This document shows positions 12,160-54,897 of a DNA stretch of 64,000 nucleotides, piece by piece. The stretch spans positions 3,906,001 to 3,970,000 of the forward strand of contig NZ_CP030840.1 in NCBI RefSeq assembly GCF_003330725.1, written 5' to 3'. The position numbers and the translations under genes are program-made. The first letter of the stretch is position 1; each line of letters starts with the position of its first letter. The notes below the pieces were generated by a model. That model made no database searches. It was not told the origin of the DNA and worked only from the letters and a program-made list of their open reading frames with translations. The DNA is from Acidisarcina polymorpha. GTDB taxonomy: Bacteria; Acidobacteriota; Terriglobia; Terriglobales; Acidobacteriaceae.

Positions 12160-15100
12160 TAGTGCGGGAACTTTCTTCTCCACGACCCAAGGAGTCCTCC
12201 CGGTCGCTTCTCGCTCGACTCGGGCAGACCGGCGGCCTGCTGGTGATTCTGCTGACGATTTTGCTGGCGGCGTCGCTCCCCATGTCCTGGCAGCAGCAGG
12301 CGGCATTTGCCGCAGTCTTGGTCGGCGCTGGGATGTTGCTCAGCCGGTTCTCCCGCGGCAGGCATGCGGTTTATCTTCTTGTCCTGCTTTCCGCCTCTGC
12401 GACGGCCCGATATGCCTGGTGGCGGATCGGCGCGCTGATCCATTACTTCGCCAGCCCGTGGACGCATATCGATCCCTGGAATGCGGCTGCCATGCTGCTG
12501 CTGATCGGCGCGGAGATGTACTCATTCGCGATCCTCTATCTGGGCTTTGTGCAGACGATTGCGCCTTTGCGACGTCCGCCAGTGCTGCTCCCCGAGGATC
12601 TTGCCGAGTGGCCGACAGTTGACATCATGGTGCCTACCTACAACGAACCACTTGATGTGGTCCGCTATACCGTACTCGCTGCCCAGGAGATTGATTGGCC
12701 ACGGGAGAAGATCGAGGTCTACCTGCTCGATGATGGCAACCGGGAAGAATTTCGCGCCTTTGCCGAGGCAGCAGGGGTTCGCTACATCGCCCGCGTCGAA
12801 CATAACCATGCGAAAGCAGGCAACATCAATCACGCACTGGCAAAAAGCTCTGGCGAGCTTATCGCTATCTTCGATTCCGATCACATTCCCACTCGTTCTT
12901 TTCTGCAAGTGACGGCTGGCTGGTTTCTGCGGGATCGGAAGCTTGGAATGCTGCAGACGCCGCACCATTTTTATTCTCCGGACCCGTTCGAGCGAAACCT
13001 CGGCCACTTTCGGCAGATTCCCAATGAAGGAGAGCTCTTTTACGGCATCATCCAGGACACGAACGATCTTTGGAATGCGACTTTTTTCTGCGGTTCCTGC
13101 GCGGTGCTTCGTCGTGCCGCGCTTGACGAAGTCCATGGAATCGCCCACGAAACGGTGACTGAAGACGCTCATACCTCTTTCCGCATGCATAAAGCGGGCT
13201 GGAATACCGCTTATATCAACCTCGTCCAGTCAGCCGGTCTGGCAACGGAGAGTATCGGCGACCACATCAAGCAGCGGGTCCGCTGGGCGCGCGGGATGGC
13301 GCAGATTTTGCGCATCGACAATCCGCTTTTCGCCAGAGGACTTAAGCTTCCTCAGCGCCTGTGCTATTTCAACGCAATGGCGCACTTCTTCTACGCGCTG
13401 CCGAGGCTTATCTTCCTCACCTCCCCGATCTGTTATCTGGTTTTTGGAAAGCTAAATATACCAGGCTATTGGCTCACGATTTTGGTCTTTGCCCTGCCCC
13501 ACCTGGCGATGGCGACGATCACGAACTCCCGCATCCAGGGGGAAAAGCGGCATTCCTTCTGGAATGAAATTTACGAGACGGTGCTCTCCCCCTATATTTT
13601 GCTGCCAACAATGCTTGCGTTAATCTCGCCTAAACTGGGCAAGTTCAACGTCACTGCTAAAGGGCAGAGCAAGCAAGACGATTCCTTCGACCACACGATG
13701 GCCGCCCCGTTCCTGGTCCTTCTCAGCCTGAACGTGCTCGCGGTAGCGATGGCGGTGCCACGGCTTCTCTACTGGGATCCAGGGCATCGGGGAACGATCG
13801 CGATGAATCTCTTCTGGACATGCTTCAACATTGCGGTGCTTGGCGTGACGCTGTCGGTCTGTTGGGAAAGCAAGCAACGGCGTACGGCGGTCCGGATCAC
13901 CACCCCGGTGCCAGTGCACCTCGAGTGCGCCGGGCGATCCTGCCTGGCTGTAACCGAGGACATATCGGTTGGAGGGGCTGCCGTGCTCGCCAAGGGAGAG
14001 TGGTCGGTTGGCGACGAGGTACGAATCTCCTTTCCAGAAGAAGACGATCAGTCGCCGCTCACTGCCCATGTGGTGCTGGTCTCTGCCACCGGGATCAGTC
14101 TCGAGTTTGATTCGAAGACGATCGAAGACCAGCGGCTCATTACTCGGGTCATCTACTCGCGCGCCGATCGGTGGCTGAATTGGAGCGACGTGCGTGCTCG
14201 GGACAATCCAGTGCGCAGCCTTTACCAGGTCGCATTGTCGTCGCTGGGCGGATTTGGCAAGATGCTTCGCCTCAGTTCTGGCGGAGGTGACAAGAACGAG
14301 CTCCGCGAACCTGCTTTTAGCCGCAACATCGCCATGCTCGTTCTACTGATTTCCATGCTTTTATTAGCCTATTGGAAAGTGAACGCGGAGCCCCTCCCGT
14401 CCGCCAACAGCCAGCATGCTCGAACGACGTTTTCGCATCCCAGCGAAGTTGCGAACTTTCAGTTCTCCCTGGGCTCGTTGGCGGGCAGGGATGGCATCCT
14501 TCTCAATCACAATCATCCCAGCCAGACGATTGCCGTAGATCTACCTGCGACGGCATTGGTTGAGAGCGGCGAACTTCGTTTAAAGTATGGTCTCCCGGAG
14601 GGAAGCAAGGGTGGCCTGACAACATTCGACATTCTCTTAAATGAGCTGCCTCTGGCATCGATTACCCCGACGATGCAGGATGTAGCCAATCGCGGGGGAG
14701 AAGTCGAAATCCCGCTCCCCGCCGACCAACTTATTCGCGAAAACAGGATTACCATCCGGCTCGCCTCCGGCGGAGATGGGGCTTGCGGCGAAGTGGCTGC
14801 GGCGGGAGGCGCTCCGATCCGCATCGACCCGGAGACCCGAATCTCTCTTGAGGCTCGTCGTCTGGCGACGGCTGACGACCTCAGTCTCCTTCCGGAGCCG
14901 TTCCTGGAAAAGTCAGTCAGTGTGCCGCTGTCGCTACCCTTTGTCTTCGCCGAGGCGCCTGAGCTGGTGACGCTAGAAGCGGCTGGTGTGCTCGCCTCCT
15001 GGGCGGGATCCGAGGTGTATAACAGTGCTTCGAAGTTCCCGGCCCAGATGGCGTCAATTCCCGCCGGCAATGCGGTGGTCCTGCTCGTCGGAGACCAGCG

Positions 15101-38286: not shown

Positions 38287-39411
38287 ATGAAATCGATTTT
38301 CACCCTATTTTTTGTCCTAGCGGCCGCCCACCTCGCACTGGCTCAAAAGCGCCTGGTGCTCCTTGACCAGGACGGTTCGGGGCCTGGCGGCTCGAACCAG
38401 ATGTCCATAATGGTCTTCCTGCAATCGCCCAAAGTCGAAGTGCTCGGCATCACCATGGTCACTGGCAACGCTTGGCGCGATGAGGAGGTGCAGCATACGC
38501 TGCGCATGTTGGAACTGGTTGGCCGCACCGATGTCCCCGTTGTTCCCGGGGCTGTCTTCCCCCTGGTTCGGACCGAGCAGGAGACGCGTCTTGCCTCCGC
38601 CCTCTACGGCAAGGTGGTCTGGCTGGGCGCCTGGGGACAGGGCCCTACAACGTTGCTTGAGACTTCAAGTGGCGCCGTTCCTACTACGGTCGACCACCCT
38701 ACGATTCCGAAATCAAACCCCAATGATCCTTATTTTGTCCCGGTCATGCCGGAAGGCGTACCCCACAGCAAGCCGCTTGACGAAGACGCCGTTCACTTCC
38801 TGATTCGCCAGGTCCATGCGCACCCCCACCAGGTGACCATCTATGCTGCCGGCCCGCTTACGAACATAGCTCTGGCCCTCTCGATCGACCCGCACTTTGC
38901 GGAACTCACTGAAGGCATCGTTCTCATGGGCGGCAGCCTCAATCCGCAGTCTCAAGACCCAGAATTTGCCACCAGCCCACGGCATGAGTTTAACTTCTGG
39001 TTCGATCCCGAGGCGGCCCATATTACGCTCCGCGCCGCATGGCCGCGCATCGATGTCACCACCGTCGATATCTCGATCAAGGCAATGTTCACCCAAGCCA
39101 TGCTTGACGCCATTGCCAAGTCACCCACCCCCACAGCTCAATACATCGCGAAATACTCGCAGGACCGTTACTATCTTTGGGACGAACTCGCCGCCTGCGC
39201 GTGGCTCGATCCATCGATCGTCACCAAAGAAAACCTCGTCTACATGGACGTCGACTTGAGCCACGGACCCGACTATGGAGACACTTTGACCTGGACCGAG
39301 GCGCTGAAGCCGCAGACGGGCGTACGCCTGGTTCACGCTCAAGTCGACCTGGACTTGCCGAAGTTTACCAAGATGTTCGTGGAATTGATGTCGACGCCTG
39401 CACCGAAGTAA
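38287..39411 (+). CDS. Secreted nucleoside hydrolase-family protein
   Basis: A 374-residue exported member of the inosine-uridine nucleoside N-ribohydrolase family, which splits nucleosides into base and ribose with a bound Ca(II). The signal peptide is MKSIFTLFFVLAAAHLALA. Family features include VLGITMVTGNAW, the IYAAGPLTNIALALSIDP block and a histidine/acid-rich FNFWFDPEAAHI region. The usual DTDPGxDD calcium motif at the N-terminus is changed to DQDGSGPGGSNQ: the first two Asp are kept but the paired Asp at the end is missing, so activity or metal binding may differ. No transporter for the products is adjacent. Confidence 0.82.
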   Translation: MKSIFTLFFVLAAAHLALAQKRLVLLDQDGSGPGGSNQMSIMVFLQSPKVEVLGITMVTGNAWRDEEVQHTLRMLELVGRTDVPVVPGAVFPLVRTEQETRLASALYGKVVWLGAWGQGPTTLLETSSGAVPTTVDHPTIPKSNPNDPYFVPVMPEGVPHSKPLDEDAVHFLIRQVHAHPHQVTIYAAGPLTNIALALSIDPHFAELTEGIVLMGGSLNPQSQDPEFATSPRHEFNFWFDPEAAHITLRAAWPRIDVTTVDISIKAMFTQAMLDAIAKSPTPTAQYIAKYSQDRYYLWDELAACAWLDPSIVTKENLVYMDVDLSHGPDYGDTLTWTEALKPQTGVRLVHAQVDLDLPKFTKMFVELMSTPAPK

Positions 39412-39463: not shown

Positions 39464-40285
39464 CTAGTTCAGTTCTCTGACCCAGATATTCCGGAAGCTG
39501 ATCGGTTCGCTTTTGTCTCCGTGAGCTTGTAGCTTGATCGGCGCGGTGTCGTACTTCTTGTAGAAGGGCTTGCCGATAAAAAGTGTCTCCCCTTTAAGCT
39601 CGAAGTGATTCTGCACCAGCACACCGTTGAAGAAGACGGTGACGTAGGCTGGAGTCTTTAAAGAGCCGTCGTCGTTGAATGTCGGCGCAGTCCACACCAC
39701 GTTGTAGGTCTGCCACTCCCCGGGCTTGCGATTTGGGTTCGCGAGCGGAATGCCTTGCTTATAGATGCTGCCGGCCTGACCGTTCACATAGGTCTTGTTG
39801 TTGTACGAATCGAGGATCTGCAGTTCGTATCCCGCATCTCCCGGCCCGGTAGAGGCGAGAAAAACGCCGCTATTGCCACGTGCCTGATCGCTGCCGGTGA
39901 TATTCTCTGGAATTCGCCATTCGATATGGAGCTGGTAATTCTTGAACGTCCGCTTGGTTTCGATGTTGCCGGAACCCGGCGCCTTGCTCACCGTCAGGAT
40001 TCCGTCGGAGACAGTCCATTTCGCCGGCGATTTGTCCCGGTTCGAGACCCACTCATCAAGATTCTTGCCGTCGAAAAGGATGATTGCGTCCGATGGAGGC
40101 GCCGAATCGGTAACGCCCGGCGTAACCACTGGGGGGACTGGTTCATAGACTTCCGTATCTTGGTGCTTCATCGCAGGGGTTGTTGCGGTTCCAGGTTGTT
40201 GCGCGTTCGGTTGCTGCGCAACCAGGGGAGCGACGATGGCCATCAGTGTTGCGAACGCGAGAGACTTCGAAAAGTGGATGCTCAT
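39464..40285 (-). CDS. Secreted DUF1080 (3-keto-disaccharide hydrolase-like) protein
   Basis: A 273-residue exported protein. The signal peptide (SKSLAFATLMAIVAPLVAQ) is followed by a proline-rich linker to about residue 60 and then a concanavalin-like DUF1080 domain: ILFDGKNLDEWVS, WTVSDGILTVSKAPGSGNIETK, FKNYQLHIEWRIP, RGNSGVFLAS, YELQILDSYNN and a terminal FRNIWVREL. Some members hydrolyse 3-keto-glycosides; others only bind glycans. The start was moved to the ATG at 40285 because the upstream 34 codons are not signal-like. It is transcribed toward the nucleoside hydrolase gene, with the hairpin between them. Confidence 0.85.
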   Translation of the reverse strand: MSIHFSKSLAFATLMAIVAPLVAQQPNAQQPGTATTPAMKHQDTEVYEPVPPVVTPGVTDSAPPSDAIILFDGKNLDEWVSNRDKSPAKWTVSDGILTVSKAPGSGNIETKRTFKNYQLHIEWRIPENITGSDQARGNSGVFLASTGPGDAGYELQILDSYNNKTYVNGQAGSIYKQGIPLANPNRKPGEWQTYNVVWTAPTFNDDGSLKTPAYVTVFFNGVLVQNHFELKGETLFIGKPFYKKYDTAPIKLQAHGDKSEPISFRNIWVRELN

Positions 40286-40396
40286 GATTTGCAATGAGAA
40301 TACACCCAACCGGCCGCATTCCGGCAAGGGTACAGTTAGCGATGCAAAGTCTCCCCACGGCTTGCACGGCCATGAACCGCGATTCACAGCATGATT

Positions 40397-43655: not shown

Positions 43656-43699
43656 CCATGGGCTATTGCCAGATTCGGAATCCCAAGCCGGAGTTATAT

Positions 43700-45760
43700 G
43701 TGAAGCTGCTTCTTCGATTCAAGCGCGCGGGCCTCTTCGCCACCGCCGTTTCATGGCTCTCTTTGCCTATGGCATCCGGTCAAGTCATCGATGAAGATCA
43801 TGGCCCAACCGATCGGCCGATCCACATTCGCGTCCACGCCGACCAGGTGCATCGAGATGTCATCCCGAATACAATTTTCGGCAGCTTCCTCGAACCAATT
43901 GGCCGATCCACTTATGGGGGACTGTGGGCTGAATTACTAGAAAATCCCAGCTTCGAAGAAGGCCTGTGGAGTGCTGGCGCTATCGTCAAAATGGTTCAAG
44001 AGCGTCCAGAGTTGGAGCGCGCCTCGCAGCTTGATCTCCCTCTTCCCTGGGAGCCGTTGGATGCCCGGCAAGGAAATCGATATGAACCGGAACGTGGCGA
44101 TGCGGCAAATTCTTCACAGTCCCTGCTCGTGATGGGCCTGCCTCAGGCTGAGGTGGGCATTCGTCAACGAATTTATCTGCCAGTGCACAGAACGCTTGCG
44201 TATCGAGGCAGTCTTTTCATCAAGCACCAATCGGGTGCGGCGCAGGTGTACATCTCGATCCGCAGACGGAACGATCCCCAGCAGGTTTTGGCGGACGCCA
44301 CGATCGAAGCAAACAAGGAAGTTTGGACAAAGTATTCTTTCGAATTGACGATTAAGCTAGGTCAAGTCGATGCGCTTCAGCCGGCCGACTTCGTCGTTGC
44401 GGTGCGGGATGATTCGCGCGCTTTCATCGACCAGCTCTCGCTGATGCCAGCCGATAATGTCGACGGCATGGACGCGGAGGTGCTGAAGTTGGCTAAGGAC
44501 CTCCACACGCCGCTTGTGCGCTATGGAGGCAATTTCACTTCCTCTTACCACTGGAAGAACGGTATCGGGCCAGCCGATCAACGTAGCAGCCAATCGAACC
44601 TTGCGTGGAATATTCCGGAATACAACACCTTTGGAACTGAAGAGTTCCTGCGATTTTGCGAGTTGATCGGAGCTCAACCACAGGTGGCGCTCAATCTTGG
44701 TTCCGGTATGCCTCAAGAAGCGGGCGATTGGGTGAAGTACGTCAATGCCCGCTGGGGGAACAAGCAGGGTGGGCTGCTATGGGAACTCGGGAATGAATTA
44801 TGGGGTAGCTGGAACATGGGCTATCCCACCCGGGATCAGATCGGAACGCGTACTGAGGCTTTCAGCGCAGCCATCCGCAAGGTGGATCCGACGGCGCGCC
44901 TGATTGCTACCGGCGCCGATGAGGATTTCTACCACGATTGGAATGCGGTCCAACTGGGAACACCTCCGGCTACATTTCAGTACCTCTCGACCCACTTTGT
45001 CGTCACCGACGACCAGGTGCAGATGAGCAACCCGTCGAATGATTTCGTTGCGCTTTCGGCGTTTGCGCTGCCAATCGGTTTGGAGCGCCGAATGAAAGAG
45101 ATGACAGAGCAAATTCAGCAATCGAATCACAAGGATGCCCAAATCGCATTTACTGAGTGGCTCTTCGTCGCCGCCGATCATCCCGCACCTGGATTTCGTA
45201 ACATGGGCGGAGCGATCGATACTGCGGGCTTTCTCAATATGCTGATGAGGAACGCCGACATCGTTCCGATCTCGGATATGACCGGTATTCTCGAATTCGG
45301 AGGCATATGGAAGAAGCGCGAGCAGGTGTATGGAGCCCCGGGATACTGGGTGCTTCGTTCCTACGCGGAAGAAAAGCCGAGCCGTCTGGTACCGACCGAC
45401 AGCGATGCTCCACAATACACGGTCGATCACGGTGTGACTCGGCTGCCCCATATCGAACATGTCCCATGGCTTGAAGTCGTGGCGGCCGAAGGGCAAACAC
45501 CGGACGAATTGATTCTGTTCTGTGTGAATCGAAATCTGACTCGCGACTACCGTGCGACGATCCAAGTTGATGGTTTCACACCTCGTCCTTTGGCAGAAAT
45601 AAAGACGATCGCGGCGCCGAGCATCTATACCGAGAATGACGAAATGGAGCCAGAAGCGGTGAAAGCGGTCGCCGATCAAATCAGCGTGGGATCCAGTTTT
45701 GAGCATGTGTTTCCGCGGGCAGGAGTGGTGGTGATTCGGCTTGTTCGCAGAAATCGGTAG
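43700..45760 (+). CDS. Secreted GH51 alpha-L-arabinofuranosidase
   Basis: A 686-residue exported glycosidase releasing arabinofuranosyl side chains from arabinan, arabinoxylan or arabinogalactan. The GTG at 43700 has GGAG six bases upstream and gives a compact signal peptide (KLLLRFKRAGLFATAVSWLSLPMASGQ). The N-terminal part includes NTIFGSFLEPIGRSTYGGLWAELLENPSFEEG, followed by a carbohydrate-binding jelly-roll segment. The TIM barrel has the acid/base Glu in WELGNELWG (E366) and the nucleophile in IAFTEWLF (E486); a C-terminal beta domain closes the protein. It heads a run of genes for binding protein, kinase, regulator, TonB receptor and GH43, so arabinan is the likely target of the locus. 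Confidence 0.9.
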   Translation: MKLLLRFKRAGLFATAVSWLSLPMASGQVIDEDHGPTDRPIHIRVHADQVHRDVIPNTIFGSFLEPIGRSTYGGLWAELLENPSFEEGLWSAGAIVKMVQERPELERASQLDLPLPWEPLDARQGNRYEPERGDAANSSQSLLVMGLPQAEVGIRQRIYLPVHRTLAYRGSLFIKHQSGAAQVYISIRRRNDPQQVLADATIEANKEVWTKYSFELTIKLGQVDALQPADFVVAVRDDSRAFIDQLSLMPADNVDGMDAEVLKLAKDLHTPLVRYGGNFTSSYHWKNGIGPADQRSSQSNLAWNIPEYNTFGTEEFLRFCELIGAQPQVALNLGSGMPQEAGDWVKYVNARWGNKQGGLLWELGNELWGSWNMGYPTRDQIGTRTEAFSAAIRKVDPTARLIATGADEDFYHDWNAVQLGTPPATFQYLSTHFVVTDDQVQMSNPSNDFVALSAFALPIGLERRMKEMTEQIQQSNHKDAQIAFTEWLFVAADHPAPGFRNMGGAIDTAGFLNMLMRNADIVPISDMTGILEFGGIWKKREQVYGAPGYWVLRSYAEEKPSRLVPTDSDAPQYTVDHGVTRLPHIEHVPWLEVVAAEGQTPDELILFCVNRNLTRDYRATIQVDGFTPRPLAEIKTIAAPSIYTENDEMEPEAVKAVADQISVGSSFEHVFPRAGVVVIRLVRRNR

Positions 45761-45873
45761 GCGAGCTTAACGAGCAGGGTCGTAGCAGATGCGGCAGGTT
45801 GACGCGTGGCCGCTCTGCGGGAATCACTGTCGAAGAAATTGTTGGCCGTGAAAGACTTCTTGCTGGAGCATCT

Positions 45874-46869
45874 GTGGACAAGATCGATGTTGCTGGCAAA
45901 TCTCGACATCAAAAAGCGTCGAGGACGCTTTGGGCCGCAATCCTTACCGTCTTTGCTGGCATGAGTTGCCACTCAGCCAGCAAGCCCGTCATTGCCGTCA
46001 TCCCTCGAACGACCGCCCTTATGCTTTGGGAGTCGGAACATGCTGGTGCCGTCGCCGCGGCCAGAAAGACCGGCTACGCGATCTACTGGAATGCACCAAC
46101 CAGTGAAGATGATGTCGAAAAACAAATCGCAATCATCAAACACGCCATTCACAATGGAGCACAGGGGCTGATCCTGGCCCCCGATCAGGCTCTCGCGCTC
46201 ATGGTTCCGATCCGCGACATCGTCGCGCAAGGGATACCTACCGTTGTCATCAGTTCTCCGCTTGCCATTCCACCTGGCGGAAAGCTCTCCTATATTTTGA
46301 ATGACGAAGACGAGACCGGTCGGATTGCCGCGGCACGCGTCGGCATGATTCTCAAGAGTGAAGGCACCGTAGCGGTTACCGGGATTGACCCCGATGTCAC
46401 CGGTATTGTTCTTCGGGCGAATGCCTTTGAAAGAGACCTGCGAGTTGGCTTTCCACGCATCAAAGTAGTTGACGAGCGCGCGGGCGGGTTTAACATTGCC
46501 CAGGCACAAGAGATCGCTGAAGATGTCCTCGCGAAGAATCCTCATTTAAGTGCAATCCTGGCCCTGAATTCGTCGGCAACACGCGGGGCCTTTCTGGCAT
46601 TGCAGAACGAGCGTCTTTTTGGAAAGGTTAAGCTGGTGGCCTGCGAACAAGAGTTGGTACCCCCGCTAACAACCGGGCAGATCGACTCGATCATCGTTGA
46701 AAACACATACCAGATGGGATATCGCGCGGTGCAGCAGATAGCCGCACAACGCCGCGGAGAAGCGGTTCCAGCCGAAGTCAAATTGCCCCCAAAACTGGTT
46801 ACGCGTGAAAATCTGAACACCGCAGAAGTTCAGCAGATGCTCACAATGGATTGGAGCGGATCGCGATGA
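45874..46869 (+). CDS. Periplasmic sugar-binding protein (LacI/RbsB-like fold)
   Basis: A 331-residue protein of the type 1 periplasmic binding fold, as in ribose-binding proteins: PVIAVIPRTTALMLWESEHAGAVAAARKTG, DDVEKQIAIIKHAIHNGAQGLILAPDQALAL, YILNDEDETGRIAAARVG and LSAILALNSSATRGAFLAL. A basic N-terminus and hydrophobic segment ending in AGMSC may be a signal or lipid anchor, but the lipobox is not standard. The GTG at 45874 has TGGAG upstream; TTG 45799 is in frame. No ABC permease or ATPase is adjacent. Instead its stop overlaps the start of a sensor kinase (ATGA), so it more likely presents a sugar to that kinase than to a transporter. Confidence 0.85.
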   Translation: MDKIDVAGKSRHQKASRTLWAAILTVFAGMSCHSASKPVIAVIPRTTALMLWESEHAGAVAAARKTGYAIYWNAPTSEDDVEKQIAIIKHAIHNGAQGLILAPDQALALMVPIRDIVAQGIPTVVISSPLAIPPGGKLSYILNDEDETGRIAAARVGMILKSEGTVAVTGIDPDVTGIVLRANAFERDLRVGFPRIKVVDERAGGFNIAQAQEIAEDVLAKNPHLSAILALNSSATRGAFLALQNERLFGKVKLVACEQELVPPLTTGQIDSIIVENTYQMGYRAVQQIAAQRRGEAVPAEVKLPPKLVTRENLNTAEVQQMLTMDWSGSR

Positions 46870-49076
46870 CGGTCTCGGGCGCGCTTCGAAAGCGTACTCT
46901 CCTGATCACTCTCGCACTCGCGGCGGTCATCGTCCCCGCAATCCTATCGGCGGTATATTTGCGCGGCCGAGCCGTCCGAGGGCTGCCGTACCGGGATGCG
47001 TTCGCCTCAGCCGATGCCAATGAATGGAGTGCGTTTGGGGGCACCTGGCAAATCTCCGAAGGGGCTATGCGTAATGACTCCGATGAGCGTGGCGCCAAAC
47101 TGATGACCGGATCTCCCTACTGGAAAGACTATTCTTTTACCTCGGACCTCGAGTTGTTGGGGAAACAAGGAGATGCGGGACTCATCCTTCGCTCGAGTGA
47201 CGAAGAGCCCGGCGTGGATTCCTATCGGGGATACTATGTTGGACTTCGCAGCAACGATGGCAGCCTGGTCATTGGTCGCGCTGACTACGGATGGATCGAA
47301 CTCGCCACACGATCCATGCCCGGCGGTGTGCACGCGTTTCAGTGGTATCACTTGAAAGCCGTAGTGAACGGATGCCGAATTACCGGGTATGCCAACGAAG
47401 TACCGCTTGGTCCAATCCAGACCCTCTCATTCAATGATCCCAACTGCATTATGAAAGGCCGGGTCGGTCTTCGTTCTCATTCATCGGGTGGTGTGTGGAA
47501 GGGCCTTGTGGTGCAGGCTCTGACTGGATCGGATCCGCAGGTATCTTCACCAGCCAGCTCCGCAGTACCAGTGTTACTCCCCTATGCAATCGACGATCCA
47601 GTCACCATGAGCCAACGGGAGTCCGGGTTTGATCCGCATGATCGAGATATGATTAGCTCGAATGTGCCGGGTATCAGCGAGCGATCTCTCCCTGTGGAAA
47701 CCATAGGAGGCCTCCGTTCAGTAAGGACAGAAAACAGGACCGCTATGGTCAGGGGCACGGTCATCTTGAATTCGCCGCGAATCTACGTACAAGATGCCAC
47801 CGGCGGCGTAGCCGTTATGCCTGCTGCCGAGACAAGATTGAAGGTCGGCGATGAGGTTGAGGTGACCGGCCAAGTTGAGGTGCACGATTTCAGCTGTATC
47901 ATTCGGCATGCGCGATTGCGACTCTTGTGGGCGCATGCGCCCGCCGCGCCATTAGCCGTCACTCCGACTCAGGCGGCTACCGGGGCATTCGATTCCAGGT
48001 TTATTGAGGTCGACGGCAGTCTTGCTGGGCAGACCGCCGGACAAGACAAAACGACCTCACTCGCGATCTCGTCCAGCGGTCAGTCATTCAATGCGATCGT
48101 CAATTTAACTCGCGGCAACACGATTCTCAGAAACATGACAAAAGGAAGCCTGATCAGGCTTCGTGGTGTGTGCGTTGTGGACCCACAGTTTACTCACAAC
48201 CTCACACCTTTCGTGCTGCTCGTTGCATCGAGCGATGATGTGGAGGTGTTGGCGGGTCCGCCGTGGTGGAGCGTGCGCAATCTCGCCATTTCGGGCCTGA
48301 TTGCCATCACTTTGAGCTTGCTAGCATACTTGCTCTATCTGCATGCGCGGCACTGGCGCCTGCGCGCCATCGTGGATGAGCGAGAGCGCATTGCTCATGA
48401 GATGCACGACACGTTGGCCCAAAGCTTCGTGGGGATCGGATTTCAGCTGCAGGCGATCAGCAACAACGTCCCATTAACTCTGCCAAATATTAACCAGCAA
48501 TTGGATCTCGCTTGCGAACTGGTGCGTCATAGCCACGAAGAAGCGACCCGCAGTCTGTCCACCCTGCGGCGTGAGTTCTTAGAGTTGGAGACGTTGCACT
48601 CGGCCCTTCATAACTTTGCCAGTAGGATGGTCGAACACGGCACAATCAGCGTGCAGTTGCGTGTCACAGGCGAAGATACAGCTACGCCATATGCGGTAAA
48701 AGACGCTCTTTTCCGCATCGGACAAGAGGCTATTTCAAACTCCTTGCGCCATGGCAATCCAAGTCTGTTACAAATATCTTTCGATTACGCTGCGACCACC
48801 ATCACCATGGTCATCGAGGACAATGGAATCGGCTTCGACCAGACGGGTGACTTGCGTGGATTCGGGCTCACGGGGATTCGGAAGCGGGCGCAGGGGATTT
48901 CAGGTGTTTTTCATCTTTTTACTGGAGCGGGACAGGGAACTCGGATAGAGATTGTGGCGCCGCTTCCTCCCAGGCTTACCTGGCTGAAGGCTAATCGACT
49001 TTTTCTCCGTGACTCCCGGAAGGGCCTATCGAATGGAAAAGCACCCAAGCAGAATTCGTATTCTTATCGTCGATGA
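46866..49076 (+). CDS. Sensor histidine kinase with putative glycan-binding ectodomain
   Basis: A 736-residue inner-membrane kinase of the NarX/LuxR-partner type. After a first membrane helix (LLITLALAAVIVPAILSAVYL) an extracytoplasmic part contains a LamG/DUF1080-like beta-sandwich (about residues 35-225: FGGTWQISEGAMRND, GDAGLILRSSDEEPG, YRGYYVGLRSNDGSLVIG) and an OB-fold-like section (about 290-460). A second helix (ISGLIAITLSLLAYLLYL) leads to a HisKA_3 dimerisation domain with RIAHEMHDTLAQ (phospho-acceptor H514) and a HATPase domain with NSLRHG and DNGIGFD. The ATG overlaps the binding-protein stop. It should phosphorylate the regulator encoded next. Sugar sensing is inferred. Confidence 0.9.
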   Translation: MTVSGALRKRTLLITLALAAVIVPAILSAVYLRGRAVRGLPYRDAFASADANEWSAFGGTWQISEGAMRNDSDERGAKLMTGSPYWKDYSFTSDLELLGKQGDAGLILRSSDEEPGVDSYRGYYVGLRSNDGSLVIGRADYGWIELATRSMPGGVHAFQWYHLKAVVNGCRITGYANEVPLGPIQTLSFNDPNCIMKGRVGLRSHSSGGVWKGLVVQALTGSDPQVSSPASSAVPVLLPYAIDDPVTMSQRESGFDPHDRDMISSNVPGISERSLPVETIGGLRSVRTENRTAMVRGTVILNSPRIYVQDATGGVAVMPAAETRLKVGDEVEVTGQVEVHDFSCIIRHARLRLLWAHAPAAPLAVTPTQAATGAFDSRFIEVDGSLAGQTAGQDKTTSLAISSSGQSFNAIVNLTRGNTILRNMTKGSLIRLRGVCVVDPQFTHNLTPFVLLVASSDDVEVLAGPPWWSVRNLAISGLIAITLSLLAYLLYLHARHWRLRAIVDERERIAHEMHDTLAQSFVGIGFQLQAISNNVPLTLPNINQQLDLACELVRHSHEEATRSLSTLRREFLELETLHSALHNFASRMVEHGTISVQLRVTGEDTATPYAVKDALFRIGQEAISNSLRHGNPSLLQISFDYAATTITMVIEDNGIGFDQTGDLRGFGLTGIRKRAQGISGVFHLFTGAGQGTRIEIVAPLPPRLTWLKANRLFLRDSRKGLSNGKAPKQNSYSYRR

Positions 49077-49671
49077 CCACCCGGTAGTTCGCACCGGCCT
49101 CACCAGTATGCTGACGACGCAGGAAAGCTTCGATGTGGTTGGCGCAGCATCGACTGGTGAAGAGGCCCTTCAATTGACGCAGCAATTCAATCCTGACGTC
49201 CTGCTTCTCGATCTGCGTATGCCAGGAATGAATGGATTTGACATTCTTCGAGAGTTACAACGGATAGTCTCTCCGCCTCGAGTCCTCGTGCTCACGAGCT
49301 TCGAAACGGATGAAGATGTCTATCGTGCAGTGCAGGCGGGGGCGCATGGTTACTTGCTTAAAAGCACGATGCAAAACGAGATGATCGTGGCGATACGCGC
49401 AGTTGCAGAAGGTAAGAGGCATATTCCCCCGAGGATTGCATCACGCCTCGCGCAGCGCATGTCGCGCCCTGCTCTCACCGCTAGAGAACTCGAAATACTG
49501 CAAATGCTGGCGAAAGGCCTGACGAATAAGCAGATCGGAACGGTCTTCCAGATTAGCGGAAACACTGCTCGCAACCACGTGAACAGCATCATCGAGAAGC
49601 TTGAAGTCGCAGATAGGACCGAGGCGGTATCGATCGCGATACAGCAAGGCCTCATCGACGTCTCCGACTAA
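49033..49671 (+). CDS. LuxR/NarL-family response regulator
   Basis: A 212-residue two-domain regulator. The receiver domain has ILIVDDHPVVRTGL, the phospho-accepting Asp in VLLLDLRMPG (D60), LTSFE and the Lys of LLKS; the C-terminal domain is a LuxR-type helix-turn-helix (LTARELEILQMLAKGLTNKQIGTVFQISGNTARNHVNSII). It is the cognate partner of the kinase, whose gene it overlaps by 44 bases; GGAAGG lies nine bases before the ATG at 49033. The flanking GH51, TonB receptor and GH43 genes are the obvious targets, though no operator could be assigned. Confidence 0.93.
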   Translation: MEKHPSRIRILIVDDHPVVRTGLTSMLTTQESFDVVGAASTGEEALQLTQQFNPDVLLLDLRMPGMNGFDILRELQRIVSPPRVLVLTSFETDEDVYRAVQAGAHGYLLKSTMQNEMIVAIRAVAEGKRHIPPRIASRLAQRMSRPALTARELEILQMLAKGLTNKQIGTVFQISGNTARNHVNSIIEKLEVADRTEAVSIAIQQGLIDVSD

Positions 49672-49999
49672 GCGCGCAAGATCTACGATCCATCCATCAC
49701 CGGTCGCTGCCCTAGTTCATATACACCATGCCGCAATAGTGCATCGGACACCTTCCCAACTCTTTGCCAGAAGGACTAGGCTCTCGACTGGCAGAGTCGG
49801 TGCTGGTGCTCATGAGGCTGGAAGCGATTACATAAAAGGCCATTCAGTGAGGTCAAAAGGAACCATTCCGACTGACTACGGGGTTGCTCAAGAGCGCATC
49901 CAAATTCTTCCGTAGGGCGGCAAAGAGAAGACGAGCGATACCAAAGAAGAGAAAGCACTACCAGATAAGAAAAAGCAACACTTTAGCCGGGAGGCAGTA
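49672..49999. other. Intergenic region upstream of the TonB receptor gene
   Basis: About 330 bases without a supported gene between the response regulator and the receptor. A good Shine-Dalgarno (GGGAGG) lies seven bases before the receptor ATG. The last 100 bases are purine-rich. A promoter is expected here, but no convincing hexamer pair or operator was found. Confidence 0.45.
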
Positions 50000-52900
50000 A
50001 TGACATTCAAAGGTCTGAATAGTACGGCGCAAGTTCTAAAAAGAATCTTGAAGGTACCAGGCGTTGAGTACCTGGCAAGTAGAGCCTGGATTCGTCCATC
50101 GTTGTTGCTGGCATCATCCTGTGCCGGCCTGGCTGTGATCACCTCCGTATTGTTCCTCTCCCCACTATTAAAAGCACAGAGCGTTCGAGGCTCACTTGCC
50201 GGAAATGTGTTGGATCCGAGCGGGGCGGTGATTGTTGGAGCGAAGATTACCGTTGTGAATAGCGGGACCGGTGCGTCCCTTGAAACAACCTCGACCTCTG
50301 CGGGATCCTACAGGTTCCCTGAGCTTCCGCTTGGGACCTACGACGTCACCGCCACGGCGAATGGCTTTGGCACACAGGTGCAGCACGGAGTGTTAGTAAC
50401 GATTGGCAGCGTCTCGGCTTTGAACTTGACCTTAGCGCCGGGCGGCGAATCGACGACCGTGAACGTGGATGCGTCTGCTCCCGCTATAGAAACCCAATCC
50501 TCGGATGTTGGCGGAACCGTTGATTCCAGGCAGATCGTTGAGTTGCCACTTGCCCTGGGTGGTGTGGGCGCCCTACGTTCGCCGGAAGCGTTTGAATTCC
50601 TGCTCCCGGGAACGACTGGTCCCGGAACCGCCAACAGCAACAACGGTATCTTTCTTTCGAAGATATCCGGCGGACAGGAATATGGTAACGAGGTGTTGCT
50701 GGACGGGGCGAGTCAAACCCGCAGTGAGAACGGCTCCTCGTTTGATGAGGAAGCACCCTCTGTTGAGGCCTTGCAGGAGTTTAAAATTACGACTGCTATC
50801 CCTGAGGCGGAATATGGCCGCACAACCGGCGGTATCGAGAGCTTCGTAACTAAATCGGGGACGAAGGAGTTCCACGGCACTGCCTTCGATATCTTCCGCA
50901 ACGAAGCCATGGATGCCAACACCTGGTTCAACAACGGCAATCGCGCTCTCACTTGTGTGGGAGCCGCAGCCACTCCGGCGTGCGCCGCTAATTTCCGGAC
51001 TCCGAGCGATAAACAAAATGATTATGGTGGCAGCTTCGGCGGTCCGGTGAAAATTCCTAAGGTCTTCAATGGCGGAGACAAATACTTTTTCTTCTTCGCA
51101 TGGGAGCAGTTCCAGCAGAAACTCGGAGCCACTCAAATCAGTACGGTACCCACCTTGGCAGAACGGGGTGGAGACTTTACCGACAGATACAATCCCGCAG
51201 CCCCGGCACCTACGCCATCCGGAACAAACCCCTGTGACGGCACCCCCGTATACACGGGTGAAGTCTTCGACCCGTCCACGACTAGAACCGTCAATGGAAC
51301 TCCGTGCCGCTCTCCATTCCCAGGTAATATCGTGCCGGTCAACCGCTTTAGCGCAGTTGCCGGAGGCCTGCTCAATTACATTCCTGCGCCAACTACGACA
51401 GCCCTCTTCAATAACTTCTTCTTTCCGAGTACGATTCCGCTGACCAATACCACCTACACTGTGCGGGTCGACGCAAACGTCTCGGAAGCTAGCAAGATCT
51501 TCGTCTCCTATAGCACCCGCGACAACAACCGGACCTCTGGTGGCAATCCGTTGCTCCCATATCCGGAAGATCCGAACACGTGGAAACAGGACTTCGAGAC
51601 TCACCTAGGCCGCGCGGGATGGGACTATGCCATCAAGCCTGCAGTGCTCAATCACCTCAATTTCGGGTTCAATCGCACAAATAGCAAGAACTTCGCTTAT
51701 CCGATTTTCAATAATATCGACTACGCTCAACGGCTGGGTATCGCAAATGCGCCACCGTCGCTCAACTTCCCGCAGGTCACCTTCGACGGCAGGGACGACC
51801 TTGTCAACCTGGGTAACCCCGGGCAAAACGACGATAACGTCGACAACGGCTGGCGGGTCAATGACAGCGTCAGCATCGAAAAGGGACGTAACAGTTACAA
51901 GATAGGATTTGATTATCGGCTACAACAGTATTCGCCGATTAACAACCCAAGTCCTGCGGTGAACTTCGCTCGTCCTCAAACGTCGTCCGATCTTGGGAAC
52001 TCAGAGAACGACGGCAACAGTTTCGCGAGTTTGCTGCTCGGCCAGACATCGGGCGGCAACTTTGCAGCAGGGTTGTATGCTGAGAAGCCCCGCTGGACGT
52101 CCTACTACTATGCGCTTTTCGCTCAGGACGATCTGAAAGTCAACAACAACCTTACGCTGAATCTCGGCGTTCGATGGGATGTGGATGTTCCGCGTACCGA
52201 GGCGCACAACGCGACATCGAACTTTAGTCCTACGGCTATCGATACCGAATACGGAGTTCCCGGAGCGATGGTCTTCGGGACAACATGCCACTGTAATACT
52301 CGTTGGGCAAACACCTACTACAAGGATATCGCGCCGCGCATCGGCTTTGCCTACACTCCGGCAAATAGCAATGGGAAGACAGTGTTTCGTGGCGGCGGAG
52401 CGATCTTTTATGGCCCGTTACAGTTCTCCGACTTTGGCGGGAGCATGAACCAGGGCTACAAAATAGCACCAAGCTTCACTAGTGCGGACGAATTCTCCCC
52501 GGCCTTCCAACTCGATAGCGGCTACCCTGCCTATCCTCAACCGCCGTCTCTCGATCCGGGATTATTCAACGGACAAGCGGTGACAGGCTCCTTCATCGCG
52601 CCGAGCGATGGCAAGCCGGCTGCCGTCTATGAGTGGAGCCTTCAGATGCAACAGCAGCTGGCCGAGGACCTTATCCTGAGTATCGGCTATCTCGGCAACA
52701 AGGCCCAAAACCTTCGCTCTAACGTGCAGAACATTAATAACATCCCGATCGCTGATTTTGCACTGAGCAGCCAGCTTAACCAGAGTGTAACTGCAAACAC
52801 TGCGGGAGTTACTCCTCCTTTCCCGGGCTTCACCACTATTTGGGGAGCGAATGCTCCTGTACAGCGAGCGCTTCGGCCATTCCCTCAATATGACTACATC

Positions 52901-53725
52901 GACACCGGATGCTGCCTTCAAAATGTAGGCATGTCCACTTACAATGCCTTACTCGTCTCGCTAACGAGGCGATACCGCAACGGGTTAACGCTCCAATTCT
53001 CGTATACATTCGCCAAGAACCTGACCGATGCCGACAGCGCGCTGCCGAACAACGGCATATCAGTGTCCCAGGTTCAGAACCCGTTCGACCTCCGTCAAGA
53101 CAAAGCGATCAGTGCTCAAGATATCCGCAACACTGTAGTGTTAGCGCCTCTATATCGGTTGCCGTTTGGGGCCGGGCAGCCTTTTCTTAACCACGGATTC
53201 CTAAGCGTCGTTGCTGGCGGATGGGAGATTGGATCGGTCCAGCGTTATGAGTCAGGCCAGCCGGTGTCGTTCTGCTGCGCAACTGGGATACCAGGTTTCG
53301 AAAACTCGATCTACTATAGCCGCGTGTTCGGACAGCCCTTGAAGAGCGCAAATTACCAGAGCGGGCATTTGAATCCGCTGATCCCAGGACAGAACAACTA
53401 CTTTAACAAGAGCGCCTTCTTTGATCCGAACGCGGCTGCGTCAGCGCCCAATAGCACTGCTCCGTGGAGCTTCGGTGATGTCCCGCGCGTTACAGATGAG
53501 GTGCGTACTCAGGCGTATCTGAATGAAGATATCAGTCTGCTCAAAACCACGCCGATTAAGGAAGGAGTAAGTTTTGTGCTGAAGGCGGAGTTCCTGAATG
53601 CGCTCAACCGGCACCAGTTCGCGCTTCCCGGAGACCTGAATCCGACGGACGGCAACTTTGGCATTCCCACAACGACGATCTCGACCCCGAGGAACCTCCA
53701 GATCACGGGGCGCATTACATTCTGA
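50000..53725 (+). CDS. TonB-dependent receptor-like outer-membrane protein with CarboxypepD_reg domain
   Basis: A 1241-residue Oar-like outer-membrane protein, typical of acidobacteria, that should import or bind oligosaccharides. A long N-terminal region is followed by a signal helix (SLLLASSCAGLAVITSVLFL) ending near LKAQSVRGSL. Residues about 60-150 are a carboxypeptidase-regulatory-like beta-sandwich (NVLDPSGAVIVGAKITVVN, GSYRFPELPLGTYDVTA), then a plug-like region (VDSRQIVELPL, VLLDGASQTR, PEAEYGRTTGG) and a large beta-barrel with many aromatic strands ending LQITGRITF with the terminal Phe. It lies between the two-component system and the GH43 gene. No classical TonB box is obvious. Confidence 0.9.
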   Translation: MTFKGLNSTAQVLKRILKVPGVEYLASRAWIRPSLLLASSCAGLAVITSVLFLSPLLKAQSVRGSLAGNVLDPSGAVIVGAKITVVNSGTGASLETTSTSAGSYRFPELPLGTYDVTATANGFGTQVQHGVLVTIGSVSALNLTLAPGGESTTVNVDASAPAIETQSSDVGGTVDSRQIVELPLALGGVGALRSPEAFEFLLPGTTGPGTANSNNGIFLSKISGGQEYGNEVLLDGASQTRSENGSSFDEEAPSVEALQEFKITTAIPEAEYGRTTGGIESFVTKSGTKEFHGTAFDIFRNEAMDANTWFNNGNRALTCVGAAATPACAANFRTPSDKQNDYGGSFGGPVKIPKVFNGGDKYFFFFAWEQFQQKLGATQISTVPTLAERGGDFTDRYNPAAPAPTPSGTNPCDGTPVYTGEVFDPSTTRTVNGTPCRSPFPGNIVPVNRFSAVAGGLLNYIPAPTTTALFNNFFFPSTIPLTNTTYTVRVDANVSEASKIFVSYSTRDNNRTSGGNPLLPYPEDPNTWKQDFETHLGRAGWDYAIKPAVLNHLNFGFNRTNSKNFAYPIFNNIDYAQRLGIANAPPSLNFPQVTFDGRDDLVNLGNPGQNDDNVDNGWRVNDSVSIEKGRNSYKIGFDYRLQQYSPINNPSPAVNFARPQTSSDLGNSENDGNSFASLLLGQTSGGNFAAGLYAEKPRWTSYYYALFAQDDLKVNNNLTLNLGVRWDVDVPRTEAHNATSNFSPTAIDTEYGVPGAMVFGTTCHCNTRWANTYYKDIAPRIGFAYTPANSNGKTVFRGGGAIFYGPLQFSDFGGSMNQGYKIAPSFTSADEFSPAFQLDSGYPAYPQPPSLDPGLFNGQAVTGSFIAPSDGKPAAVYEWSLQMQQQLAEDLILSIGYLGNKAQNLRSNVQNINNIPIADFALSSQLNQSVTANTAGVTPPFPGFTTIWGANAPVQRALRPFPQYDYIDTGCCLQNVGMSTYNALLVSLTRRYRNGLTLQFSYTFAKNLTDADSALPNNGISVSQVQNPFDLRQDKAISAQDIRNTVVLAPLYRLPFGAGQPFLNHGFLSVVAGGWEIGSVQRYESGQPVSFCCATGIPGFENSIYYSRVFGQPLKSANYQSGHLNPLIPGQNNYFNKSAFFDPNAAASAPNSTAPWSFGDVPRVTDEVRTQAYLNEDISLLKTTPIKEGVSFVLKAEFLNALNRHQFALPGDLNPTDGNFGIPTTTISTPRNLQITGRITF

Positions 53726-53741
53726 GGCGTTTGGCATGCTT

Positions 53742-53829: not shown

Positions 53830-54897
53830 ATGAGACAAGCGATTTTCCCATTTTCGCGTTGTAGTGCGATATTGACGGTTCTTCTTCTCACTTCGATTTG
53901 CGGTGGCCAGAGCAACGCAAAAACATTTACAAACCCTCTCCTGCCGAGTGGAGCGGACCCTTGGGTCCTGCAATGGCACGATACCTACTACTACATGAAT
54001 ACTACCGGCCAAAATCTGACCATCTGGAAGACCGCCGATATCACCGATCTAGCGCATGCGGAGAAGAAGGTAGTTTGGACGCCACCGCTAACCGGCCCCT
54101 ATTCGCATGAGATCTGGGCCCCGGAACTGCACCGCATACAGAATCGTTGGTACATCTATTTCGCCGCAGATGCAGGAACAAATGCTTCGCACCGAGTGTG
54201 GGTTCTAGAGAACAAATCTGAAGATCCGATGGCAGGCACGTGGCAGATGAAGGGAAAGCTTTCCAGCCCAGCAGACCACTGGGCGATCGATCCATCCGTC
54301 TTTGAAGTAGATGGAGCGGACTATGTCGTCTGGTCAGGGTGGGACACCGAGTCGAATGGTGTACAGAGGATCTTCATCGCCAGGCTGCTTAACCCATGGA
54401 CGCTGGGCAGTAAGCCGACAATTATTTCTACCCCCGAATTTCCCTGGGAGAAAGTCGGCGACATCCTTAAGTCAGCACAAGTTGAATCTCTTCCCCATGT
54501 GGACGTGAATGAAGGCCCGGAGATCCTGCAGCACGACCGTAAAATCATCTTGATTTACTCTGCAAGTGGCTGCTGGACAGACTACTATGAGCTGGGAATG
54601 ATCACCGCTACGGCAGGCAGTGATCTACTCGATCCATCCTCCTGGAAGAAGTCTTCGAACCCGGTCTTCTGGCAGTCTCCCGAAGCATCGGTATACGGTC
54701 CAGGTCATAATACGTTCTTTAAGTCGCCAGACGGGAAAGAGGATTGGATCTTGTATCATGCCAACTCCGAACCAGGCCAGGGTTGCGGCCGGTCGAGGTC
54801 TCCTCGTGCTCAACGATTCACCTGGAATCCCGATGGAACGCCCGACTTTGGACGCCCCATTGCGACTAGCCAACCGTTACCGAAACCATCCATGTAA
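53830..54897 (+). CDS. Secreted GH43 glycosidase (arabinanase/arabinosidase type)
   Basis: A 355-residue exported five-bladed beta-propeller hydrolase. The signal peptide is MRQAIFPFSRCSAILTVLLL, with cleavage near QSNA. The three GH43 acidic residues are visible: base D43 in PSGADPW, pKa modulator D154 in WAIDPSVF and catalytic acid E228 in VNEGPEIL; HEIWAPELHRI is also conserved. Many members act on alpha-arabinans, which fits the GH51 enzyme at the other end of the locus. AAGG lies eight bases before the ATG at 53830; the frame is open to 53731 without signal-like sequence. Exact linkage specificity is unknown. Confidence 0.88.
   Translation: MRQAIFPFSRCSAILTVLLLTSICGGQSNAKTFTNPLLPSGADPWVLQWHDTYYYMNTTGQNLTIWKTADITDLAHAEKKVVWTPPLTGPYSHEIWAPELHRIQNRWYIYFAADAGTNASHRVWVLENKSEDPMAGTWQMKGKLSSPADHWAIDPSVFEVDGADYVVWSGWDTESNGVQRIFIARLLNPWTLGSKPTIISTPEFPWEKVGDILKSAQVESLPHVDVNEGPEILQHDRKIILIYSASGCWTDYYELGMITATAGSDLLDPSSWKKSSNPVFWQSPEASVYGPGHNTFFKSPDGKEDWILYHANSEPGQGCGRSRSPRAQRFTWNPDGTPDFGRPIATSQPLPKPSM

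Follow-up and report, generated by a model that had tools for sequence, protein, structure and literature searches.

Background

The hybrid two-component systems (HTCS) of the Bacteroidetes place a membrane glycan sensor beside a locus of TonB receptor and glycoside hydrolase (GH) genes, with sensor and AraC output in one polypeptide. XylFII-LytS, from Clostridium beijerinckii, has a LytS-type ectodomain and an AraC-type regulator, and AraPST of Geobacillus stearothermophilus is a three-component arabinose sensor in an arabinan locus, with kinase and regulator families other than those described here and an ATP-binding cassette (ABC) target. Many kinases activated by a solute-binding protein (SBP) are said, in the available part of PMC11113362, to be encoded beside their SBPs. 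Here we analyse a 64 000-bp stretch of the Acidisarcina polymorpha genome (NZ_CP030840.1, positions 3906001-3970000; the whole stretch is called the window below), in which a ribose-binding-type SBP, a histidine kinase and a LuxR-type response regulator are encoded by three consecutive, overlapping genes.

This trio is most likely a three-component sugar sensor that drives a polysaccharide-utilisation locus, as a first-pass annotation of the window had proposed, and the proposal is supported by conservation, receptor linkage and a candidate operator. The genes, their overlaps, their conservation, the missing match to the permease family PF02653, the co-occurrence of the SBP with one ectodomain part and the palindrome were all computed directly. 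With less assurance, though on balance favourably, we regard the trio as representing an unnamed family of SBP-gated polysaccharide-locus regulators in Acidobacteria, built from swappable parts: a sandwich domain that may be a separate protein, a second OB pair that may take the place of SBP and sandwich together, and a LuxR output that one clade has replaced, along with its operators, to give receiver-LacI regulators.

Organization of the locus

The features of the locus are the following (window coordinates).

43658-45760, + strand, GH51-like alpha-L-arabinofuranosidase (Pfam Alpha-L-AF_C and ASD1_dom; PDB matches)
45874-46869, + strand, ribose-binding-type protein, putative lipoprotein and candidate signal sensor (Peripla_BP_4, Pfam E=1.2e-36)
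46866-46869, + strand, 4-nt ATGA stop/start overlap of the SBP and kinase genes (from the sequence)
46866-49076, + strand, histidine kinase (Pfam; ATG at 46866, stop codon at 49074-49076)
About 46899-46955 and about 48282-48338, + strand, two membrane helices of the kinase (hydropathy)
46977-47531, + strand, DUF1080-type sandwich of the kinase ectodomain (PF06439, 3keto-disac_hyd, residues 48-211)
47718-48275 (approximate bounds), + strand, OB-like pair of the kinase ectodomain (weak match to YgiW)
48378-48572, + strand, HisKA_3 dimerisation/phosphoacceptor domain (Pfam E=1e-11, residues 505-569)
48699-48968, + strand, HATPase_c domain (Pfam E=6.7e-08, residues 612-701)
49033-49671 (alternative start GTG at 49009), + strand, NarL/LuxR-type response regulator (Response_reg E=6.6e-31, GerE E=4.5e-17)
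49712-49729, no strand assigned, candidate operator CTAGTTCATATACACCAT with an imperfect second half-site (matrix score 19.6, cross-validated 16.4)
50000-53725, + strand, TonB-type outer-membrane receptor (PF25183, OMP_b-brl_4, E=3.3e-182; PF13620, CarboxypepD_reg)
53830-54897, + strand, GH43 enzyme (PF04616, E=2.5e-64)

The SBP gene begins with GTG at 45874, behind a GGAG at 45865-45868 and 113 bp after the end of the GH51-like gene, and its TGA stop codon occupies 46867-46869. Both overlaps reported by the first-pass annotation are present: the ATGA shared by SBP stop and kinase start recurs exactly in 61 of 72 loci with a fused kinase, more often than by chance, and the 5' part of the regulator gene lies within the end of the kinase gene whichever start (49033 or 49009) is chosen. 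The flanking GH51, TonB receptor and GH43 genes that it named were likewise confirmed by Pfam. The best PDB matches of the GH51-like enzyme are the arabinofuranosidases 4atw and 3ug3, and a CBM_4_9 score falls marginally below its Pfam cut-off. The GH43 open reading frame (ORF) opens at 53731, and a likelier start, read by eye, is around 53830, ahead of a signal peptide; its two best PDB matches are 9nxg (GH43) and then 3akf (an alpha-L-arabinofuranosidase). Upstream of the locus, a nucleoside hydrolase gene (IU_nuc_hydro) lies at 38287-39411 on the + strand.

Conservation of the trio

We searched 298 genomes of the order with the kinase of the window, scoring the three best candidates per genome, and found relatives at E≤1e-60 in 62 genomes, at 84 places. 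Eighty of these places, namely the window and 79 others, were examined (G178, G221, G163:C2 and G199:C134 were left out); L050, L016 and nine further loci, seven of them from the SBP search described below, were added, and such a kinase is present in 86 of the resulting 91 stretches. The SBP gene adjoins the kinase gene in 78 of the 86, and 73 of these loci also have a regulator no more than 4.5 kb away (63 on the same strand, 10 on the opposite strand). Lack of conservation, which the first-pass annotation had listed as a result that would refute its reading, is thus not what was found. No regulator occurs within that distance at L061 and L085 (both on short contigs), L088, L099 and L110; we nevertheless call all 78 loci with an SBP trio loci. 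They span 58 genomes with G handles, carrying 16 genus labels, plus the metagenome-assembled genome that contains L016.

By architecture, the 86 kinase loci comprise 72 with an SBP and a kinase with fused sandwich, six with an SBP and a separate sandwich gene, six with neither SBP nor sandwich, L117 with a separate sandwich at a contig edge, and L176 with a sandwich and no SBP. The -4 overlap between the SBP and kinase genes, exact in the 61 of 72 fused-kinase loci given above, was scored by a script that picked the in-frame start closest to -4, and L123, tallied here as fused, has a kinase read in two frames. A draw of 396 genomes across the phylum, with two candidates scored per genome, yielded 14 genomes with a match at E≤1e-40; outside the family the only one was G600, with the kinase part alone. 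Copies can be missed by such searches: the fourth trio of G026 (L173) surfaced only through the SBP search.

Kinase ectodomain and its co-occurrence with the binding protein

The two membrane helices of the kinase delimit an ectodomain of about 440 residues. The first-pass annotation had described it as a DUF1080-like sandwich plus an OB-like fold; Pfam bears out the DUF1080-type sandwich, and the OB-like part, which has no Pfam match, depends on a weak PDB match. A profile of 40 aligned ectodomains, in which two Cys are invariant, has weak PDB matches to the levanase domain 4b1l (E=0.00054) and to YgiW (1nnx, E=0.0014). A stand-alone DUF1080 enzyme (3-keto-disaccharide hydrolase family) is encoded close to the locus at 39464-40387 on the - strand; its BLASTP match to the kinase sandwich is marginal (E=0.011 across 30 residues). 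Judging from these comparisons, we favour a binding over a catalytic role for the sandwich.

SBP and sandwich are found together at 78 loci and are both missing at six; one locus has the sandwich without the SBP, and one is cut by a contig edge. In the SBP-less kinases of L050, L121, L122, L124 and L125 a second OB-like pair, recognised by eye, stands in the position of the sandwich. These kinases form one clade within the trio kinases, with a support of 1.0 of its own and of 0.433-0.869 for the branches above it. The sandwich is a gene of its own beside the SBP at six loci, which thus have a four-gene form. The separate sandwich proteins (L117-L120, L126, L127 and L174) carry an N-terminal hydrophobic stretch and have an SBP gene adjacent where the contig reaches; at L174 the sandwich ORF, encoded on the other strand, separates the SBP gene from the kinase gene. 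In a kinase-domain tree for which a single distant sequence, L177, served as root, the low branches include the split forms (L117-L120; L126-L127; L174), but L174 pairs there with the fused form of L098.

An alternative that we consider possible, though unlikely, is that the kinase itself senses glycan through a lectin-like sandwich, the SBP merely buffering sugar in the periplasm or acting as a co-receptor to increase sensitivity. The weak likeness of the sandwich to the levanase domain would fit this, as would the kinase at L176:8082-9731, which retains a sandwich, fused straight to the kinase part without the OB pair, and has no SBP nearby. So would CuaDSR, the two-component pair of which perceives cellobiose without its SBP, according to the available part of PMC10384115. 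The near-strict co-occurrence of SBP and sandwich and the exact gene overlap speak against this alternative, and argue for a stoichiometric pair.

Linkage to receptors and glycosidases

Of the trio loci that span 15 kb or more, 71 of 75 contain a TonB-type receptor scoring at least 100 bits, compared with three of 20 random stretches (L208-L227), and so do all five SBP-less loci; at this score none was found at the trio loci L052, L088, L091 and L110. The neighbours of the trio include GH127, GH43, GH51, GH3, GH35/42, MGH1-like and, weakly, rhamnosidase-like genes, GH127 being the commonest of the groups scanned (33 of 75 trio loci). At least one of the seven scanned GH groups occurs in 51 of the 75 trio loci versus none of the 20 random stretches, a comparison that is biased because the GH queries were taken from trio loci. 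For the window, arabinan is a plausible substrate because of the 3akf match of the GH43 enzyme, the arabinofuranosidase matches of the GH51-like enzyme and the frequency of GH127 among the neighbours.

The enzymes differ from locus to locus, and all seven GH groups are missing from 24 of the 75 trio loci, as might be expected if the trio responded to another signal, such as a sugar of the cell envelope or one used in signalling, and its glycosidase neighbours were incidental. We consider this improbable, given that 71 of 75 loci have the receptor, and given the candidate operator sites described below, which stand at receptor genes and also ahead of GH127 genes.

The binding protein and the search for a transport partner

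The N-terminus of the SBP is a hydrophobic leader, called without a signal-peptide program, and the lipobox in the window, GMSC, is non-canonical; its Cys32 is at least 90% conserved across 44 aligned sequences. The transport binding proteins 4wut, 4rxt and 5dkv head the PDB matches of the SBP profile, followed by 5xsj, 5xss and 5xsd (E 3.1e-38 to 5.4e-38), which we take to be XylFII structures, and 6sw4. Another match is 2x7x, labelled 'SENSOR PROTEIN' in the PDB and presumably the binding domain of a hybrid sensor.

The first-pass annotation noted that the SBP has no ABC transporter partner in the window. A search of the A. polymorpha genome (7.6 Mb, 96.4% complete) for a distant permease, covering the family PF02653, which we take to be the one that serves such SBPs, extends this, for that family, to the whole genome: there are no matches, compared with matches in 12 of 14 control genomes. 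The SBP is accordingly not classed with the CUT2-type binding proteins of ABC importers, no match to a cognate PF02653 permease having been found in the genome. Peripla_BP_4 has 24 matches in the genome, three of which are the SBPs of its three trios. A further strong Peripla_BP_4 match in this genome, which has no PF02653 match, lies at G000:C1:5541863-5542591.

A search of 120 genomes with the SBP gave 45 places at E≤1e-30, in 34 genomes. Forty of these adjoin such a kinase, 38 by coordinates (known trio loci) and two, L173 and L174, by their ORFs. The remaining five (L169-L172 and L175) have no kinase; Pfam-confirmed ABC ATPases are encoded at L169, L170 and L175, and PF02653 permeases at L171 and L172. 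From this distribution we infer that the SBP family passed from transport to signalling. That the SBP serves an ABC importer encoded elsewhere, its position before the kinase being incidental, would agree with these five relatives of the SBP, which lie in ABC operons of the order, and with its best PDB matches, but is largely refuted by the missing PF02653 match and the tight, conserved coupling to the kinase, and is highly improbable.

A candidate operator upstream of receptor genes

We counted k-mers upstream of 79 receptors located within three genes of an SBP or kinase, using 499 other genes as background. TAGT[ACT]CA is enriched before receptors, TAGTACA occurring before 20 of the 79 compared with 11 of the 499, and the dyad GTACA-N2-TGTAC is found upstream of 10 receptors and of none of the other genes. 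The resulting candidate palindrome, ATAGTnCATATGnACTAT (TAGTnCA-N2-TGnACTA), consists of two 7-bp half-sites spaced by 2 bp, enriched before receptors; NarL spacing is two 7-bp half-sites, 2 bp apart. A palindromic matrix, cross-validated by locus, scored at least 12 for 53 of the 79 receptors, 43 of 499 same-locus genes and one of 395 shuffles; the matrix was seeded from the consensus in the same data, so that the cross-validation is not fully blind, and the shuffles were of single bases. The density of sites scoring at least 14 is 0.071 per kb for the trio loci, 62 of the 78 having such sites. For random stretches it is 0.0075 per kb (three of 20) and for the five SBP-less loci 0.03 per kb; none of the five SBP loci of the ABC type has a site at this score.

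No window hit other than that at 49712-49729 scores above 10, the second best score across the 64 kb being 9.7. The closest relative, L016, has a site scoring 19.4 at 12889-12906, in the same intergenic gap as the window site. A site with one mismatch stands beside each of the three trios of the genome (912671, 3955713 and 5027153). Among the 65 receptors scored of 103 candidates, a set from which those of L048 and L049 are missing although they match PF25183, only that of the window is preceded by a site less than 2 kb from its barrel match. Another element, TTCATATACA, a conserved core between regulator and receptor obtained by footprinting the window against L016, was rejected, as it scores -6.6 in L016.

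Regulators with LacI output

At seven loci the regulator has a receiver, a LuxR helix-turn-helix that has decayed and, behind it, a helix-turn-helix of the LacI type. These receiver-LacI regulators are encoded at the following positions.

L074:11121-12005
L075:8150-9067
L079:8215-9396
L081:10886-11914
L087:11006-11920
L091:10907-11743
L092:8221-9147

In these seven proteins PF00356 scores 56-62 bits (cut-off 27), and Response_reg is recognised in all of them. The kinases of their loci form one clade (support 0.711), and a search of the 298 genomes with one LacI-type regulator, eight candidates being scored per genome, returned just these seven at E≤1e-70. Among the matches listed from the open-licence PMC literature, no receiver-LacI regulator is described.

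Where the LuxR domain is intact, the palindrome, at a score of at least 12, stands before the receptor at 50 of 64 loci; where the domain is decayed, it does so at none of six. Fisher's test gives p=3e-4 assuming independence, an assumption that the loci do not satisfy, the change from LuxR to LacI having probably been one event. This comparison used a matrix trained on all sites, and tallied L016 as having no site, its site lying some 400 bp ahead of the receptor, just where the 400-bp scan ended. L061, where the contig ends and the regulator is out of view, has a site before the receptor; at L074, L087 and L091 a palindrome hit of at least 12 lies elsewhere in the stretch, not before the receptor where that was scanned. 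Instead, LacI-type sites, TGGAAGCGCTTCCA with up to two mismatches, were found before the receptor at L074, L075, L079, L081, L087 and L092, and none at L091; the consensus was drawn from L081 and L087, and L074, L075, L079 and L092 alone are independent tests. With up to one mismatch there are six such sites in the 140 kb of their own loci, none in 1.44 Mb of other loci and one in 0.4 Mb of random stretches; with up to two mismatches the numbers are 16, 10 and 7.

Operator and regulator output change together. Of the computational evidence for an action of the regulator at the SBP/receptor region, this matched change is the strongest, and it constitutes a natural experiment on the rewiring of signalling proteins.

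Proposed mechanism and points against it

In the mechanism that we propose, the signal would run from sugar to SBP, sandwich, kinase, regulator, operator and receptor. The putative lipoprotein would bind a sugar freed from polysaccharide, our best guess being an arabinofuranose-type sugar, and would dock on the kinase ectodomain and alter kinase activity; the DUF1080-type sandwich is the likely docking surface because SBP and sandwich co-occur. The domains suggest phosphotransfer from the kinase to the LuxR-type regulator, which would bind the predicted palindrome next to the operon of the TonB-type receptor and presumably raise the expression of uptake and glycosidase genes. The receptor linkage and the shared candidate operator lend added support to control of the locus.

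Several observations weigh against this sensor mechanism, in addition to the sandwich kinase without an SBP at L176 and the transport proteins that head the PDB matches of the SBP. The window site, 270 bp ahead of the receptor ATG, has an imperfect second half-site, and in its own 7.6-Mb genome the pattern with up to one mismatch occurs at 29 places versus 57 for a reversed control, which is no enrichment. At score 12, a site is missing from 13 of the 78 trio loci. Six of these are the LacI-type loci L075, L079, L081 and L092, L088 without a regulator and L110 with a decayed domain, and the other seven (L089, L098, L100, L102, L105, L107 and L174) have an intact LuxR domain. An AlphaFold model of the ectodomain, built from the window and L016 sequences only, reached a pLDDT of 29.8; it was not interpreted, and no interface is taken from it. 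The sample is not neutral, the examined kinases having been selected by likeness to the whole kinase of the window, and the trio loci are mutually related, so that the counts are of non-independent events. Finally, a search of 150 genomes with the OB part alone (251 residues) found 105 places, spread over 51 genomes. A hand count assigns 54 of these places to trio loci; the remaining 51, whose E values are all 8.8e-23 or weaker, belong to no trio locus, and one of them (G028, which is L124) was examined, the other 50 not. These 51 places suggest that the OB part is a broader module, of which the trio is one use.

Most of the non-trio OB matches, for example G133:C8:43647-44285 and G003:C31:146569-147171, lie within long open frames. 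The receptor upstream regions of L102 and L105 carry the variant palindromes TAGTGC-N4-GCACTA and AGTGCT-N2-AGCACT, and the kinase subclade of these two loci is without the common operator; regulator specificity has perhaps shifted in this subclade.

Comparison with known systems

Acidobacteria, which degrade polysaccharides and are abundant in soil, have many TonB-type receptors (in this genome 65 were scored), and among the matches listed from the open-licence PMC literature we saw neither an account of how these receptors are regulated nor a system of the present kind in this phylum. In a Granulicella strain at high sugar, TonB-dependent receptors and two-component systems are among the upregulated proteins (PMC7074687); the available part of that paper contains nothing on this sensor system, and a term search of the available part of PMC10766802 gave no mention of Acidobacteria. 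A recurrent candidate system with a predicted operator would allow the regulon to be read from genomes.

With SBP-gated three-component systems the trio shares the coupling of SBP, kinase and regulator genes and an SBP that, as judged by PF02653, does not serve an ABC importer; its Response_reg and GerE domains place the regulator among the NarL/LuxR response regulators. The first-pass annotation regarded it as an acidobacterial counterpart of the Bacteroidetes hybrid sensors, which stands as an analogy and not as membership in HTCS, since kinase and LuxR-type regulator are separate proteins encoded by separate genes here. The pairing of a ribose-type binding protein with a kinase recalls XylFII-LytS. 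The trio nevertheless falls outside that family proper, having a DUF1080-type sandwich plus OB pair, a HisKA_3 kinase, a GerE regulator and a TonB-type candidate target.

CuaDSR of Ruminiclostridium cellulolyticum is alike in having a lipoprotein SBP, a kinase and a regulator in one operon that controls sugar uptake genes; it differs in the AraC-type domain of CuaR, in its ABC importer target and in its Gram-positive host (PMC10384115, available part). Because CuaDSR responds without its SBP (same source), the SBP described here may sensitise the response without being strictly required for switching. The working principle is thus known from CuaDSR and XylFII-LytS, whereas the ectodomain, the kinase subfamily, the regulator family and the candidate target of the acidobacterial trio differ from theirs.

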